From Parapedobacter defluvii (GTDB lineage Bacteria; Bacteroidota; Bacteroidia; Sphingobacteriales; Sphingobacteriaceae): DNA of 64,000 nt. Under the pieces are notes generated by a model. That model worked only from the letters and a program-made list of their open reading frames with translations. It was not told the DNA's origin and searched no databases. Positions within the stretch are counted from its first letter, which is position 1. Every line of letters starts with the position of its first letter. Positions 49,518 to 54,979 of the stretch are shown here, one piece after another. A program made the translations under genes and the position numbers. The stretch covers positions 677 through 64,676 of the forward strand of contig NZ_BMIK01000006.1 of NCBI RefSeq assembly GCF_014642075.1, read 5' to 3'.

Positions 49518-49871
49518 TTATACAATTTGACAGTCCATCAACAATTTTTCCAGCGCAGCGATTGTTTTTTGCTGTGCAGCAATTACACGATTTAAGGAAT
49601 CAATGGTACGCTCGTAGTGTTGTTGTGCAACTTTTTGTGTCTCTTCATGCTCGCCAATGAGCATATTTCCTTTACCGGTTATCACCCAATGTGCGTTCAG
49701 GTCCGGATATGTCATTAGTATATTTTCTAACTTATCGATGCCGATTGTGCGGTTCTTTTTTAGCTGACCACCGAAAGAACCGTTCGAAAGCCCTACAGAC
49801 TTTTCAAAGGCGCTTATTTTGATGCCCTTGTGATCAAGATAAGTTTTAATACGCTTCAGCGGGCTTGACAT
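49518..49871 (-). CDS. Helix-turn-helix repressor-like regulator
   Basis: 117 residues. The HTH lies near residues 10-60 (KISAFEKSVGLSNGSFGGQL, with IDKLENILMTYPDLNAHWV), followed by the GKGNML motif common in Bacteroidota phage-like repressors, and a coiled-coil end (ERTIDSLNRVIAAQQKTIAALEKLL) for dimerisation. Divergent from the fimbrial genes with 344 bases between starts, and a 24-bp palindrome lies 30 bases before its own ATG. Likely an autoregulated repressor and a candidate fimbrial regulator. Confidence 0.8.
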   Translation of the reverse strand: MSSPLKRIKTYLDHKGIKISAFEKSVGLSNGSFGGQLKKNRTIGIDKLENILMTYPDLNAHWVITGKGNMLIGEHEETQKVAQQHYERTIDSLNRVIAAQQKTIAALEKLLMDCQIV

Positions 49872-50215: not shown

Positions 50216-51031
50216 TTGCCGCCTATATTTTTTTTGTTCAGTTTATTCAATTTAATAAGTGTGTTTGTAGTTGGGGATAGAAAGGCACTGTTTGCCAAAA
50301 AATCATACAATCGATGGGGGCATATAATCCTGATATTAATATCGATATTTTTTGTTGGTAGCCTTCAAGCACAGGAAGTGTTTCACTACCGTTCGCCTGT
50401 GCTCCGGGAGTACCGTGGTGTAATGCCTTCCGCTACCTATATGCCGATTGGTCTCCCGGCTCAAATTGGTGGGAGCCGATGGGTAGACCCGATGCTGGTG
50501 GTCAAGACCAATGTAACCGAGCTAGCCACAACCACGTTGAATGCGGGCGTTGAAATTTTTTCGGAAGGGCGGTTCAGCGTTAGTCTTCCTGTCAGTTACA
50601 ATCCATGGACATTTAACGATAATAAAAAAATTAAGCACCTGGCTTTTCAACCTGAATTCCGTATTTGGTTTGGAGAGACTTTTCGTGGTTCATTTATTAA
50701 TGTGCAATCCTTTATTGGCTTGCAACTTCACTACCTGTATTACAATACGGGAGGTATAAACATCCCATTTGGCATGTTCCCCGACCCTAAAAATACCCGC
50801 TATCAGGGGCAGGGTACGGGGGGAGGGGTTACCTATGCCAATCAGTTTGGACTGGGGGAAAGATGGCGTGGAGAAATCGGTACCACGCTTGTTTTTTCGT
50901 ACCTCTGGTATGACAGCTACGAATGTAAAACCTGCGGGGCCTTCAAAGGAGCTGGTACGAGGCGGTACCTCGGTCCGGGAAAATCATCGCTGTCAATTAT
51001 CTATCTCTCGGTTAGTTATGCACTTTACTAA
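50216..51031 (+). CDS. DUF3575 outer-membrane-type protein of the fimbrial locus
   Basis: 271 residues if the TTG at 50216 is used; no ATG is available early in this frame, and a GTG at 50261 (256 residues) is the other option. A hydrophobic segment (IILILISIFFVGSLQAQ) gives a signal peptide ending in QAQ. The rest shows alternating strands with VVKTNVTELATTTLNAGVEIF and EFRIWFGETFRGSFI, typical of DUF3575 proteins that often accompany Bacteroidota fimbrial genes. Function unproven; an outer-membrane barrel is likely. First gene of the fimbrial run, 59 bases before the pilin gene. Confidence 0.75.
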   Translation: MPPIFFLFSLFNLISVFVVGDRKALFAKKSYNRWGHIILILISIFFVGSLQAQEVFHYRSPVLREYRGVMPSATYMPIGLPAQIGGSRWVDPMLVVKTNVTELATTTLNAGVEIFSEGRFSVSLPVSYNPWTFNDNKKIKHLAFQPEFRIWFGETFRGSFINVQSFIGLQLHYLYYNTGGINIPFGMFPDPKNTRYQGQGTGGGVTYANQFGLGERWRGEIGTTLVFSYLWYDSYECKTCGAFKGAGTRRYLGPGKSSLSIIYLSVSYALY

Positions 51032-51090
51032 TTAATTATATGGTTTACTAAATCAAACAATCAAATTTCAAAACAATTAAATTTTTACTT

Positions 51091-52767
51091 ATGAAAATCA
51101 AACAATTACTAAGCCTGGCGCTGATTGGATTGGCGGTAGGGGCGTGTAAGAGACCGAACGGGGGGGAAGATCCGACAAATGTGGGGCCGGAAGGGAAGTT
51201 GGTGAAAGCGAAACTGGCCATTTCAATACCAAAGAGTATACGGACGTATGCACCTGGAGCTAGCGATCTGTATGCTGCCCCGGAAGAAATCTATGCGGAT
51301 CACATCGACGTGTTTATCTATGAAAATGGGGGAAGCTATGCCGTCGATCATCATCATTTTATTCGTACGGCATCCCCTGACTTTACTTCAACAACCCCTC
51401 CCGATGAGGGTGAGTTTAAAAACCCAAGCGATGGCACCACCTTTGTAACAGCTGAATTTGATGTTAAGGAGGGCGACAAGCTGGTATATGTTGGTATAAA
51501 CTTACCGGATTTGATTGTAGATAGGCTACGAACGGGATATTATGTCAATGAAATATTTGAAGATGATGACCTGCTTGCAGAATTACTATCCGGCTCTCCG
51601 GGTGCTGGAGGTGCGTCTAATTTAGCGTTTTTTTCTTCCACTAGGGGTACAAATGTAACGTTTGCGGAAGCAGATGTGGTGGACGACTATACTTTCAATG
51701 TATCAGTGAATAGATTGGTAGCTAAAGTAGTTGTAACAACAGCAGGAGGTGCCACTAGTACTGCGTTCAATGATGTAAGTGGCGGAACCATTACCAATTT
51801 TCAGTTTGCCGTTGGCCAACTGAATAATCAGATGTTCGTGTCACCTCTTCTTGGCACACCCGGTGAAGATCCAAATCATGCCGACAACACCATACCTTTT
51901 GTTGGAGCTCCTAGCAGCCCTCACAATAACCGTATTTTACAAGCAGTAAATACAGGTGATTATAAGGACATAAATGGTCCACTCGTTGCGGGAGATGGTG
52001 ACTTTCAGAACCCGGCTACATACGTCCAGTATGCTACGGAAAACACATCGGCTTCACACCGGCATCAAGATGTCACCTATGTAAGTATTAAGGCAGAATT
52101 TATACCGCACCTGTTGGGTGCAGACCCTACCAGCGGTGACGCTTCAACCTATTATTCTGGTCCGACGCTTCCAGAATTATATGCGGTATTCACGGGAGAT
52201 AATACAGATGGTGTGGATGCACTCGGGGCCCGTTACTTTGATGATCTAGCCGATGCACGAGCCTTTGTAACGGGTACGTGGTTTACTACTAATATTGCTG
52301 GGCACGCAATTGTTGCTAGTGCAACTCCTAATCATGACTCCGATGCAATACAAGGTGAATCCGACCATTATATCTTTTTTTATGATAACAGCGAATGTTA
52401 TTACAGGATTTACCTAAACCCTACGGGAAATTCAGGGGCAACTCATCCATATGATGTTCTTCGTAATACCGTCTATGTAGCTAACATTACCGGGGTGAAC
52501 TACATCGGTACAACAAAGCCAGATGCGATACCTGGCGGTTATGAAGATGGTAGTCTGAGCGAAGCAACGGTAATGGGAGCCGCGCCGGGTACATATAGAG
52601 GTACACCTATTTACCCCGGGGATTGGTTTCCCAAAACATTCACAGGAACACCAATATTTCCCGATGATGTGATTAGCATCACTCCAGTGGCAACCGGGCT
52701 TAATGTGGAAATTTCCATTGAACCTTGGGATGTTGACGATCCCAGTGAAGGGTATGAACTAAATTGA
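51091..52767 (+). CDS. Mfa1/FimA-like fimbrial major subunit, lipoprotein precursor
   Basis: 558 residues. The signal peptide ends in a lipobox (LAVGAC, Cys19), as in Bacteroidota fimbrillins, which are exported as lipoproteins and then cut to start assembly. Residues about 37-52 (LVKAKLAISIPKSIRTY) match the region where Porphyromonas FimA is cut after an Arg; here the Arg is residue 51. Two beta-sandwich domains follow, and the C-terminus ends with the fimbrillin-like VEISIEPWDVDDPSEGYELN. Longer than FimA (about 380 residues). Next to an Mfa2-like anchor gene and a C11 protease gene. Family call good, exact role of major rather than minor subunit inferred. Confidence 0.85.
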   Translation: MKIKQLLSLALIGLAVGACKRPNGGEDPTNVGPEGKLVKAKLAISIPKSIRTYAPGASDLYAAPEEIYADHIDVFIYENGGSYAVDHHHFIRTASPDFTSTTPPDEGEFKNPSDGTTFVTAEFDVKEGDKLVYVGINLPDLIVDRLRTGYYVNEIFEDDDLLAELLSGSPGAGGASNLAFFSSTRGTNVTFAEADVVDDYTFNVSVNRLVAKVVVTTAGGATSTAFNDVSGGTITNFQFAVGQLNNQMFVSPLLGTPGEDPNHADNTIPFVGAPSSPHNNRILQAVNTGDYKDINGPLVAGDGDFQNPATYVQYATENTSASHRHQDVTYVSIKAEFIPHLLGADPTSGDASTYYSGPTLPELYAVFTGDNTDGVDALGARYFDDLADARAFVTGTWFTTNIAGHAIVASATPNHDSDAIQGESDHYIFFYDNSECYYRIYLNPTGNSGATHPYDVLRNTVYVANITGVNYIGTTKPDAIPGGYEDGSLSEATVMGAAPGTYRGTPIYPGDWFPKTFTGTPIFPDDVISITPVATGLNVEISIEPWDVDDPSEGYELN

Positions 52768-52800
52768 TTCAACGTTTTCAAGTTGAAAGCTAAATTTATC

Positions 52801-52830
52801 GCGGAGGTCTTGTGGTGTCAAGACCTCTGC
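52801..52830 (+). promoter_or_regulatory. Hairpin between pilin and anchor genes
   Basis: 12-bp stem GCGGAGGTCTTG (52801-52812) with CAAGACCTCTGC (52819-52830), including one G-T pair, and a 6-base loop. No T-run follows, so it is not a full terminator; it may protect the pilin mRNA from 3' decay or reduce read-through into the anchor gene. Confidence 0.6.
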
Positions 52831-52866
52831 TAAATGAAATCAATAATACGCGATAGACGATTATTC

Positions 52867-53775
52867 ATGAAGGCTACCCGGAATTCCAGGCTGTATAGCT
52901 GTATGCTGGTATTGATTTTAACAAGCTGTATCAAAGAAGATCTGGAAATCTGTCTGCCACAGCCTGTCGTTATCGCGTTTTCCTTTATTTCCTCCCAAAA
53001 GTGTGCTGAAGACCCCATAATTCCAACAGACCTAAACCGCTTAACGGTGTTTTTATTTGATCACAATGGTCGATTCATGCAACAAGTAGATACCATTCCA
53101 ACCGGAAGCAGTTATCAGGTGGAGTTGTCCTTAGTGCCTGCCTACTACCAATTCGTAGCCGTTGCTGGATTCGACAATGATCAATTGCGTGGCGCACCAT
53201 TTGTACCAGGGGTAACAAATATACGGGATGCAGCCGTATCGAGCTACCTTGAACAGCGGAACGGTTCGTTGCTATCGGCCGAACGGGTGCTTTATCTCGG
53301 AAACGATACGCTTACGGTGCAGCCCGAAACACAAGGTCAGGAGCTTTCGGTAACTTTGGTCCAACAAACAAAAACGCTGAATGTCACGGTAGATGGTATA
53401 GCCAACACTCACTATCAGGTTGCACTTGCGGGAAATGCCGCACAGTATACGTTTGAAATGGAGCAAATCTATCTTACCGGAAACCCATTGATTTACATCC
53501 CATTGCAGGAGCAAGATGGCCTTTTTGAGGGAAAGACGTTAATCAATTGGCCCTTAAAAGAAGAGGGTGACTATACGCGTCTACAAATCATCGATCCGAC
53601 CACGGGTAGGCGGTTGGTTGACGAAATTTTCTTGGAGTTGCTGGAACGTGTGCCGGGAATCGACTTAGCATGTTCAACAGGTTTTGACATTGAGATCGTG
53701 TATCGAATCAATGTCGGCTTGACTATCTACATCGAGAATTGGAAAGTATATAGTGACGGGTATATATTGATTTGA
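52867..53775 (+). CDS. Mfa2/FimB-like fimbrial anchor lipoprotein
   Basis: 302 residues from the ATG at 52867 (an ATG at 52834 would add 11). The lipobox is LTSC with Cys21, followed by IKEDLE, which fits the surface-lipoprotein export signal known from Bacteroidota (Lys then acidic pair right after the Cys). The mature part opens with DLNRLTVFLFDHNGRF and ends in LTIYIENWKVYSDGYILI, as in FimB/Mfa2 proteins that anchor fimbriae and limit their length. One gene after the pilin, 35 bases before the peptidase. Confidence 0.82.
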   Translation: MKATRNSRLYSCMLVLILTSCIKEDLEICLPQPVVIAFSFISSQKCAEDPIIPTDLNRLTVFLFDHNGRFMQQVDTIPTGSSYQVELSLVPAYYQFVAVAGFDNDQLRGAPFVPGVTNIRDAAVSSYLEQRNGSLLSAERVLYLGNDTLTVQPETQGQELSVTLVQQTKTLNVTVDGIANTHYQVALAGNAAQYTFEMEQIYLTGNPLIYIPLQEQDGLFEGKTLINWPLKEEGDYTRLQIIDPTTGRRLVDEIFLELLERVPGIDLACSTGFDIEIVYRINVGLTIYIENWKVYSDGYILI

Positions 53776-53809
53776 CTTCTCTATGCAATGTTATCATAGA
53801 TACAGGAAC

Positions 53810-54979
53810 ATGAAACGGCTATTTGCAGGTATAATCTGCCTGCTATTGGGGCTGCTCAATGCTTGTAGCGGAGATGATGTGGAAATAGATCCTTCCATCG
53901 AACCTGAACCCGATCTACCAACCCGTACCATCCTATATTATTTAGGTGCCGATAATAGCTTGTATACAGAATCCAAAGATAAGATCGAAGCGCTGTGTCT
54001 CGGATTTCCGGGAGGTAAAGATCACCTGGTGATCTATAAAGACAGCCGTAATGAATCGCCGGAATTGCTGGAGGTCTATGCTGCTGAGAATGGTGAAAAT
54101 CAAATCCGGGTTATCAAAACCTATCCCGAACAAAATAGTGCAACCGGTGAAACATTCCAAAGGGTATTGGTGGACGTGAAAACGTCCTTCCGGGCGGATT
54201 CTTATGGGCTGATCTTATTCTCTCATGCCTCGGGTTGGCTGCCGAAAGGCACCCTCACTCGTCCCGAATCTGCTATCTTACAAATGGGTACCACTCCCAT
54301 ACGTACGTATACCGTCGCCATGGACGGTTCAGACGAATTGGACTTAGTGGAATTCGCCGCTGCAATTCCCGATCACTTCTTCGATTTTATCGCCTTCGAA
54401 GCCTGCTTTATGGCAGGCATCGAGGTGCTCTACGAGCTCAAAGATAAGACCGACTATGTCATTTCATCCGCAGCCGAAATTGTGTCACCTGGTTTTCTGC
54501 CGATCTACCCGGAAGCACTACCGATGCTGTATCAGTCACAACCGGATCTTGCCGGATTCGCAAAGGCATATTTTGATTTTTGGAATGCTCAAACGGGTGA
54601 CTACCGTTCCGCCACGATTACCGTAACCAGAACCGCGGGCCTCTCAATGCTGGCAAATTGGGTTAAGCTAAATACCGGTAACCAGGTGTCAGAAAAAGAC
54701 CTATTCGATATCCAGCATTTCGATCGATACCGCAACCATCGTTTGTTTTTTGATTTTGCCGATTACCATGGCCGCAAAACCGACGACGTGGGTAGAAACC
54801 AGCTAGCCTCTTTGCTCAATACACTCGTGGTTTATAAAGCGGCAACACCTTCCTTCATTCCAGGTCAGCTGGGTTTTCAGATCAATTACCACAGCGGTAT
54901 CACTACATACATCCCTCAGGAACGTTTTCCTTCCCTCAATGAGCGATATAAGGACCTCACTTGGTATAAATTGAATTGA
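53810..54979 (+). CDS. Clostripain-family (C11) cysteine peptidase lipoprotein
   Basis: 389 residues from the ATG at 53810; an ATG at 53783 would add nine. The lipobox LNAC ends at Cys19 and SGDDVEID behind it resembles a surface-export signal. The catalytic pair is visible: His139 in LILFSHASGW and Cys199 in FEACFMAGIEVLYEL. The protein opens after the signal with RTILYYLGADNSLY. C11 peptidases cut after Arg or Lys. In Porphyromonas the Arg-specific gingipain cuts the pilin; this peptidase in the fimbrial gene run could do the same here. Function in fimbriae is inferred. Confidence 0.85.
   Translation: MKRLFAGIICLLLGLLNACSGDDVEIDPSIEPEPDLPTRTILYYLGADNSLYTESKDKIEALCLGFPGGKDHLVIYKDSRNESPELLEVYAAENGENQIRVIKTYPEQNSATGETFQRVLVDVKTSFRADSYGLILFSHASGWLPKGTLTRPESAILQMGTTPIRTYTVAMDGSDELDLVEFAAAIPDHFFDFIAFEACFMAGIEVLYELKDKTDYVISSAAEIVSPGFLPIYPEALPMLYQSQPDLAGFAKAYFDFWNAQTGDYRSATITVTRTAGLSMLANWVKLNTGNQVSEKDLFDIQHFDRYRNHRLFFDFADYHGRKTDDVGRNQLASLLNTLVVYKAATPSFIPGQLGFQINYHSGITTYIPQERFPSLNERYKDLTWYKLN

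Follow-up and report, generated by a model that had tools for sequence, protein, structure and literature searches.

A gene for a clostripain-family (C11) lipoprotein follows the pilin and anchor genes of a fimbrial cluster in Parapedobacter defluvii, which raises the question of whether this fimbria is supplied with its own pilin-maturation protease, and after which residue such an enzyme would cut. We analysed the locus in a stretch of 64,000 nucleotides, referred to here as the window, and compared it with C11 and fimbrial genes of other genomes.

Gene content of the fimbrial cluster

Pfam and NCBIfam profiles identified four consecutive genes on the forward strand of the window, in the order DUF3575 protein, Mfa1-family pilin, Mfa2-type anchor and C11 lipoprotein. 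The DUF3575 gene (50216..51031; PF12099, E=2e-44) may truly start downstream of 50216, and its profile search was run from 50324; a relative was located immediately 5' of an Mfa1-type gene in the loci L061, L063, L064, L065, L074 and L075. The next gene (51091..52767) encodes the stalk pilin, a lipoprotein that matched NF038041 with 189.6 bits (cut-off 130) and PF15495 with E=1e-8, and whose lipobox cysteine, Cys19, is invariant in all seven orthologues. The anchor (52834..53775; PF08842, E=2e-25) is likewise a lipoprotein, and 34 bp separate its stop codon from the start of the C11 gene. The genome contains a single C11 hit and a single Mfa2 hit, and these are neighbours of each other.

The C11 open reading frame spans 53783-54979 on the forward strand, and a start at 53810 gives a lipoprotein of 389 amino acids (53810..54979). 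It matched the Pfam family Peptidase_C11 (PF03415) with E=4e-20 and 73 bits, against a cut-off of 25.8 bits, and its closest solved structures were 6mzo (E=6e-46), 3uws (PmC11), 6n9j, 6nag and 5dyn. The AlphaFold model reached a pTM of 0.80, and Foldseek ranks 1-15 were all C11 proteases. The protein is therefore a member of the C11 family by sequence and fold; its score with the NCBIfam clostripain equivalog TIGR02806 was 13.7 bits, far below the cut-off of 550. The catalytic dyad of His139 (54224..54226) and Cys199, the last codon of Glu197-Ala198-Cys199 (54398..54406), is intact, and His and Cys occupy these positions in all 64 C11 proteins aligned. The preliminary description, which had reported a C11 lipoprotein with both catalytic residues in a fimbrial locus, is borne out by these matches and by the DUF3575, pilin and anchor genes that lie 5' of it on the same strand.

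Two further small genes flank the cluster. A 144-aa protein 3' of C11 (55044..55478, forward strand) is receiver-like by eye and has no Pfam hit; it is also found beside C11 in the other Parapedobacter loci, L064 and L065 (phmmer, 2e-48 and 5e-56), and phmmer found none in the remaining fimbrial loci read beyond these three Parapedobacter loci. On the 5' side, a divergent small protein (49518..49871, reverse strand) is HTH-like by eye, has no Pfam hit above cut-off, has relatives in the corresponding position of L064 and L065, and is possibly a regulator of the cluster. No tip subunit was recognised in the window cluster (50216-54979), and the tip profile, which was run without a positive control, gave none genome-wide. 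P. pyrenivorans (L064) has a similar tip-less set of stalk, anchor and protease, which sets both apart from the remaining Sphingobacterial loci that were read. A search of the genome for C25 proteases gave no PF01364 match, and the control searches were equally silent.

A C11 clade with a changed S1 pocket

Alignment of the 64 C11 proteins separated two groups, for which we coined the labels E-type (35 proteins scoring at least 325 bits, including that of the window) and D-type (29 proteins scoring at most 313 bits). In PmC11, Asn50, Asp177 and Asp207 are described as the most likely determinants of specificity, and Asp177 as highly conserved in C11 (PMC4850288). The position of Asp177 carries Glu in 35/35 E-type and Asp in 29/29 D-type proteins. 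At the position of Asp207, which also belongs to the S1 pocket, all 35 E-type proteins have Pro (Pro227 in the window, 54488..54490), compared with 3 of the 29 D-type proteins. The residue two places before the catalytic His is Phe in every E-type protein (Phe137 in the window) and in no D-type protein, of which 21/29 have Trp. Because Glu197 stands where the S1 Asp is expected, the window protein should not be assumed to be an Arg/Lys-specific clostripain.

In a tree built after removal of the diagnostic columns, the E-type proteins formed one clade with support of 99/95, and the Sphingobacterial members formed a subclade (97/95) among copies from the Tannerellaceae-containing family. The type is rare class-wide, with matches better than 1e-100 in 2 of 395 genomes.

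Linkage of E-type C11 genes with fimbrial genes

A contig scan with the C11 protein of the window gave five relatives, from two Parapedobacter, Pedobacter alluvionis, Pedobacter sp. N36a and a Tannerellaceae MAG, and all five adjoin fimbrial genes. Among 201 genomes of the family, C11 was found in 31 and Mfa2-like proteins in 24. Mfa2 matches of at least 90 bits, a line that was set after the scores were known, occurred in five genomes (G000, G068, G093, G123 and G165), which were the same five that carry the C11 subtype of the window, and in each of them the two genes lie at most 5 kb apart. The hypergeometric p value for this co-occurrence was 4e-10, treating genomes as unrelated. The next Mfa2 match, in G178 (77.8 bits), came without a C11 hit, and the first-round profiles found no DUF3575 or Mfa1-like gene on its stretch, so it is apparently not the same type of locus. 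With 242 family genomes searched for Mfa2, the eight with a strong match were the eight with this C11 subtype. Within the genus of the window, both genes were present in 3 of 9 genomes and neither in the other 6.

A prediction of linkage was fixed in writing before the C11 profile was run against 399 family genomes. Eight matches scored at least 574 bits, and the next best scored 297. Three of the high-scoring genomes were outside the first sample; G891 and G750 matched known loci by coordinates, and G737 alone was new. When 41 genomes were searched for match positions only, two 148-bit Mfa2 matches were located in G737, 7.0 and 13.6 kb 3' of C11 on the same strand, and no Mfa2 match above 41.6 bits was found in the 38 family genomes whose C11 matches score at most 297 bits. 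The equal scores of this Mfa2 pair, 6.6 kb apart near the E-type C11 (G737:C1:1212926-1221143), point to a possible tandem duplication among the fimbrial genes.

In the surrounding stretches read, pilin linkage was specific to the E-type. Of the 34 fetched E-type stretches, 15 were pilin-linked, 4 had only a DUF3575 gene and 15 were unlinked; the 29 D-type stretches comprised none that was pilin-linked, 7 with only DUF3575 and 22 unlinked. With the window included, pilin linkage was observed for 16/35 E-type copies versus 0/29 D-type copies (Fisher p=1e-5; 6e-5 without the Parapedobacter copies). These counts cover fetched loci only, and 'unlinked' may mean 'not seen', since several stretches stop at a contig end. 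Forty stretches were fetched from the C11 hit list, one of them repeating the genome of L076; all listed C11 matches of at least 324 bits were read except G699:C196, which contains a stop, and the lower ones were a selection, mostly from long contigs. L072, L073 and L181 were excluded as duplicates of L065, L064 and L076, respectively. An ordinary D-type C11 was also considered as a pilin-linked gene and was rejected on the 29 stretches read.

In six of the seven D-type loci with only DUF3575, that gene lies on the opposite strand. These are L142, L210, L214, L215, L217 and L218 from the Tannerellaceae-containing family, with 92-153 bp between the two genes, and an older partnership of C11 and DUF3575 possibly lies behind such pairs.

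The linked E-type copies comprise seven from Sphingobacterial genomes, which are all seven that were read, window included, and nine from the Tannerellaceae-containing family, two of them from one genome. In the majority of linked loci C11 lies 3' of the pilins, but it is 5' of DUF3575 in L061 and 5' of Mfa2 in G737. The linkage label changes at least seven times inside the E clade. Several genera and a second family thus contain the pairing that the preliminary description proposed to look for in other Bacteroidota, so that its refuting outcome, a lack of linkage elsewhere, did not occur.

Whether such neighbourhoods could be accidental or inherited without function can be judged from their surroundings. 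These are common to the three Parapedobacter loci and partly to the two Pedobacter loci, so that each set may represent one event. Against this stand at least four distinct surroundings among the seven Sphingobacterial loci, the nine loci of the Tannerellaceae-containing family and the coupled presence or absence of both genes within the genus, and we regard a functionless neighbourhood as extremely improbable. The linkage data also bear on whether the enzyme is a general surface protease, which would free lipoproteins or activate other secreted proteins in the manner of fragipain and would be placed among fimbrial genes incidentally. Fragipain is described as freeing many surface lipoproteins (PMC12632263, section 13), and 15 of the 35 E-type copies were unlinked on the stretches read. 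However, the linkage is specific to the subtype and recurs in separate branches, and no family genome searched had the subtype without also having a strong Mfa2 match. These observations make a general protease improbable.

In four loci of the Tannerellaceae-containing family (L076:7126-9923, L139:9099-10298, L203:11777-13778 and L204:3696-4910), a reverse transcriptase gene (RVT_1) lies between the tip pilins and the E-type C11, in 4/4 loci searched; two of these loci were also searched for a bAvd protein, and both have one. They look like diversity-generating retroelements packed together with fimbriae and C11.

A conserved tyrosine at the putative pilin maturation site

In P. gingivalis, Arg49 is given as the residue at which Rgp cleaves Mfa1 (PMC5954841). 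A Bacteroidales Mfa1 with the motif T-R-A-D-G was aligned here with P. gingivalis Mfa1 (5nf3), and the two Arg residues were one residue apart in an ungapped alignment. At the corresponding place Thr-Tyr is invariant in the seven Sphingobacterial stalk pilins. In the window pilin these are Thr52 and Tyr53, and the codons of Thr52-Tyr53-Ala54 (51244..51252, forward strand) mark the putative maturation site behind the first beta strand, with the cut predicted after Tyr. The Arg typical of Arg-gingipain sites is missing; Tyr53 is aligned there, and in the context K-S-I-R-T-Y-A an Arg, Arg51, lies two residues earlier. The AlphaFold model of the pilin, with a mean pLDDT of 40.6, was of too low a quality for locating the site within the fold.

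The motif TY[AST] was present at the site in 15/15 stalk and tip pilins of the Sphingobacterial E-type loci. Within the first ~110 residues it was found in none of 7 anchors, that of the window included, and in none of 39 other lipoprotein-like open reading frames. Among 56 tip-family proteins aligned with MAFFT, the site column contained Tyr in 32, Arg in 14, Lys in 4, Phe in 3 and other residues in 3, mostly with Thr before it and Ala or Ser after it, which indicates that one and the same site carries Tyr in some proteins and Arg/Lys in others. The column was marked through one Tyr-site member, and Tyr-site members may be over-represented in this set, since its proteins were picked by similarity to profiles seeded with Sphingobacterial pilins.

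We then compared locus classes. Tyr sites were found in 15/15 pilins of Sphingobacterial E-linked loci, 13/16 of E-linked loci in the Tannerellaceae-containing family, 8/46 of other loci of E-type carriers, 10/30 of genomes without an E-type in the assembly from g220, a genus of the Tannerellaceae-containing family, 0/22 of g100/g187 genomes that are D-only by score, 0/15 of f33 and 0/5 of the unlinked locus of G528. The profiles behind these counts were likewise seeded with Sphingobacterial pilins. Sites were called with a regular expression followed by correction by eye, proteins without a recognised lipobox being excluded; 'TYATF' in the first strand was the chief source of false calls. Given as Tyr/Arg or Lys/other, correction changed the Sphingobacterial E-linked counts from 13/1/0 to 14/0/0 (the window being extra), the E-linked counts of the Tannerellaceae-containing family from 10/4/2 to 13/3/0, the other loci of E-type carriers from 12/31/3 to 8/35/3, g220 without E-type from 12/18/0 to 10/19/1 (the one being Phe), D-only g100/g187 from 1/20/1 to 0/21/1 and f33 from 2/9/4 to 0/11/4; the G528 locus gave 0/4/1. 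For the Tannerellaceae-containing family the tests used a stricter count of 11 Tyr and 3 Arg/Lys. Comparison of the E-linked loci together (26 Tyr, 3 Arg/Lys) gave p=1.5e-9 against other loci of E-type carriers, p=3e-11 against D-only genomes and p=3e-5 against g220 genomes without E-type, in tests that count the pilins of one locus separately and ignore shared ancestry.

At the level of genomes, a rule that a Tyr site needs an E-type C11 was rejected: the other loci of E-type carriers had 8 Tyr and 35 Arg/Lys sites, versus 10 and 19 in g220 assemblies without an E-type (p=0.17). Tyr-site pilins without an E-type in the assembly were found in G587, G589, G592, G593, G595, G596 and G599, which are 58-94% complete, and such cases are in our judgement too numerous to be explained by assembly gaps alone. 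The occurrence of these pilins in g220 therefore indicates that Tyr sites are not strictly dependent on the E-type enzyme. All D-type C11 proteins read from g220 keep the S1 Asp; Pro is present at the second pocket position in L261 (G587), L263 (G593) and L271 (G590), from which no rule could be derived. The D-type C11 of L261 (1-6000) has an E-like S-P-G-F at this position, and its genome contains three Tyr-site pilins and no E-type C11.

Some other loci deserve separate mention. In the E-type-linked loci L139, L200 and L203, Tyr-site and Arg/Lys-site pilins are mixed within one locus, which would fit the use of a second cut or a second enzyme for some subunits. Weak Mfa2-like lipoproteins of other Sphingobacteriaceae were considered as further examples and rejected; by eye they belong to a different kind of cluster, in which TY[AST] is confined to the first strand or lies well away from the site, and the single exception among the loci displayed, L057, is the E-type locus of G165 itself. 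In one genome of the window's family a C11 with a D-type score lies beside an opposite-strand, weak Mfa2-like protein of 25.5 bits (G770:C1:1325465-1327677).

The processing loop of the protease

PmC11 processes itself at Lys147 (PMC4850288). At the corresponding position the E-type proteins have Arg in 31/35 and Tyr in 4/35, namely in all three Parapedobacter proteins, that of the window included, and in L063; the D-type proteins have Arg or Lys in 27/29 and Tyr in 0/29. The residue in the window is Tyr167 (54308..54310), five residues before a conserved Asp, and its surroundings I-R-T-Y-T, with Arg165, resemble the I-R-T-Y-A of the pilin. Arg and Tyr thus appear to replace each other in both the pilins and the enzyme, which suggests that the E-type enzyme may accept Tyr. 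The Arg kept in most E-type loops fits cleavage after Arg.

The enzyme could also be a pilin maturase that still cuts after Arg or Lys, at Arg51 in the window, with Thr-Tyr serving as a structural feature of the mature N-terminus. The C11 enzymes described in the sources cited prefer Arg/Lys, Arg51 and the loop residue Arg165 both stand in an I-R-T-Y setting, and the retention of Arg in 31 loops points the same way. However, only 2/7 orthologous stalk pilins have Arg51, the others having Gln, Thr, Gly, Ser or Phe; Tyr replaces Arg/Lys in a single tip column with mostly the same neighbours; and the S1 Asp is Glu throughout the E-type. We consider this reading unlikely. Simple Arg-specific maturation, which was tried as the explanation for the clade of the window, is, judged by sequence, disfavoured by the pilin site and the pocket residues. 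The reasoning of the preliminary description, that clostripain-type peptidases cut after Arg/Lys as the gingipains that mature Porphyromonas pilins cut after Arg, was not supported for this locus, given Glu and Pro at the two S1 Asp positions of all 35 E-type proteins and Tyr at the site of all 15 stalk and tip pilins.

A proposed role in pilin maturation

Starting from the observed cluster with its intact dyad and conserved linkage, the E-type clade with its changed pocket and the Tyr site of stalk and tip pilins, we propose that the C11 protein of the window is probably the pilin-maturation protease of its own type V (Mfa1-like) fimbria. That it cuts at Tyr53 itself we consider a nearly even prospect. 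The pilin, the anchor and the protease would be lipidated and moved to the cell surface, where the C11 zymogen would be activated by a loop cut at Tyr167. The active enzyme would then strip the lipidated N-terminal strand from the stalk pilin between Tyr53 and Ala54, and removal of this strand would open the groove for the donor strand of the next subunit. The anchor, which has no cut site, would keep its lipid and hold the fibre, as anchors of type V pili are described to do (PMC12632263).

More tentatively, the E-type may represent a branch of C11 dedicated to fimbriae, in which exchanges in the S1 pocket (Asp to Glu, Asp to Pro, Trp to Phe) brought about cutting after Tyr, or possibly after Tyr or Arg, as the pilin site T-R-A became T-Y-A, with the cut after the second residue in both, and the enzyme's own activation site changed likewise in Parapedobacter and one further genus. 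A different role near the pilins, such as the trimming or shedding of completed fimbriae or the processing of some other product encoded in the cluster, would agree with the position of C11 near fimbrial genes in the seven Sphingobacterial loci, and the data leave the order of events unfixed. The conserved site nevertheless lies within one residue of the maturation cut of P. gingivalis and is present only in the subunits expected to be cut, which makes any such different role quite improbable. The suggestion of the preliminary description that the cluster has a built-in maturation protease is retained in part: the linkage recurs and a pilin-trimming role fits best, and the Arg/Lys reasoning behind it is not supported.

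Relation to known systems

As far as they are described in the sources cited, PmC11, fragipain, distapain, thetapain and iotapain of gut Bacteroidales share with the E-type the family, the fold, the His/Cys dyad and a processing site in the loop. The E-type differs from PmC11 and its kin in the Glu for Asp177, the Pro for Asp207 and the Phe where most D-type proteins have Trp, and from ordinary C11 in its frequent location within fimbrial loci. The Mfa1/FimA fimbriae of P. gingivalis, as described, have a similar Mfa1-type stalk, Mfa2-type anchor and site behind the first strand. They are matured at Arg by Arg-gingipain, a C25 protease, whereas here the site has Tyr and the protease is a C11 encoded in the cluster. 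In 12 Bacteroidales fimbrial stretches there was no C11, and the pilin sites were mostly Arg/Lys.

Type V pilins of gut Bacteroidales are described in a review of 2025 as being trimmed by a surface clostripain (PMC12632263, section 14), so the general idea of clostripain maturation predates this finding. The Bacteroides system resembles the present one in using a clostripain as pilin protease and differs in that fragipain has further substrates; section 14 of that source is silent on gene linkage and on a Tyr site. The C11 of the window differs from the known clostripain maturases in its placement in the cluster, in the altered pocket and in a pilin site that is probably centred on Tyr. No report that placed a C11 gene within a cluster of fimbrial genes, or that described a Tyr maturation site, was found among the matches listed, which were mostly titles and the starts of abstracts, and an earlier mention is possible. 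The fimbrial linkage, the E-type clade and the Tyr site seem to be new.

The identity of the type V pilin maturase outside Porphyromonas bears on how surface fibres are built in a large group of bacteria. The proposal is directly testable, since the protease is inherited together with the fibre genes, a candidate motif for the cut is conserved and the pocket is altered. If the Tyr step is true, the presence of T-Y-A, cut after Tyr, in stalk and tip subunits and its absence from the anchor would serve as a rule for predicting mature pilins in these loci, and the E-type would provide a natural case of a clostripain shifting its specificity along with its substrate. It would then be a clostripain-family protease with a preference for an aromatic P1 residue, fitted to its fibre by co-evolution.
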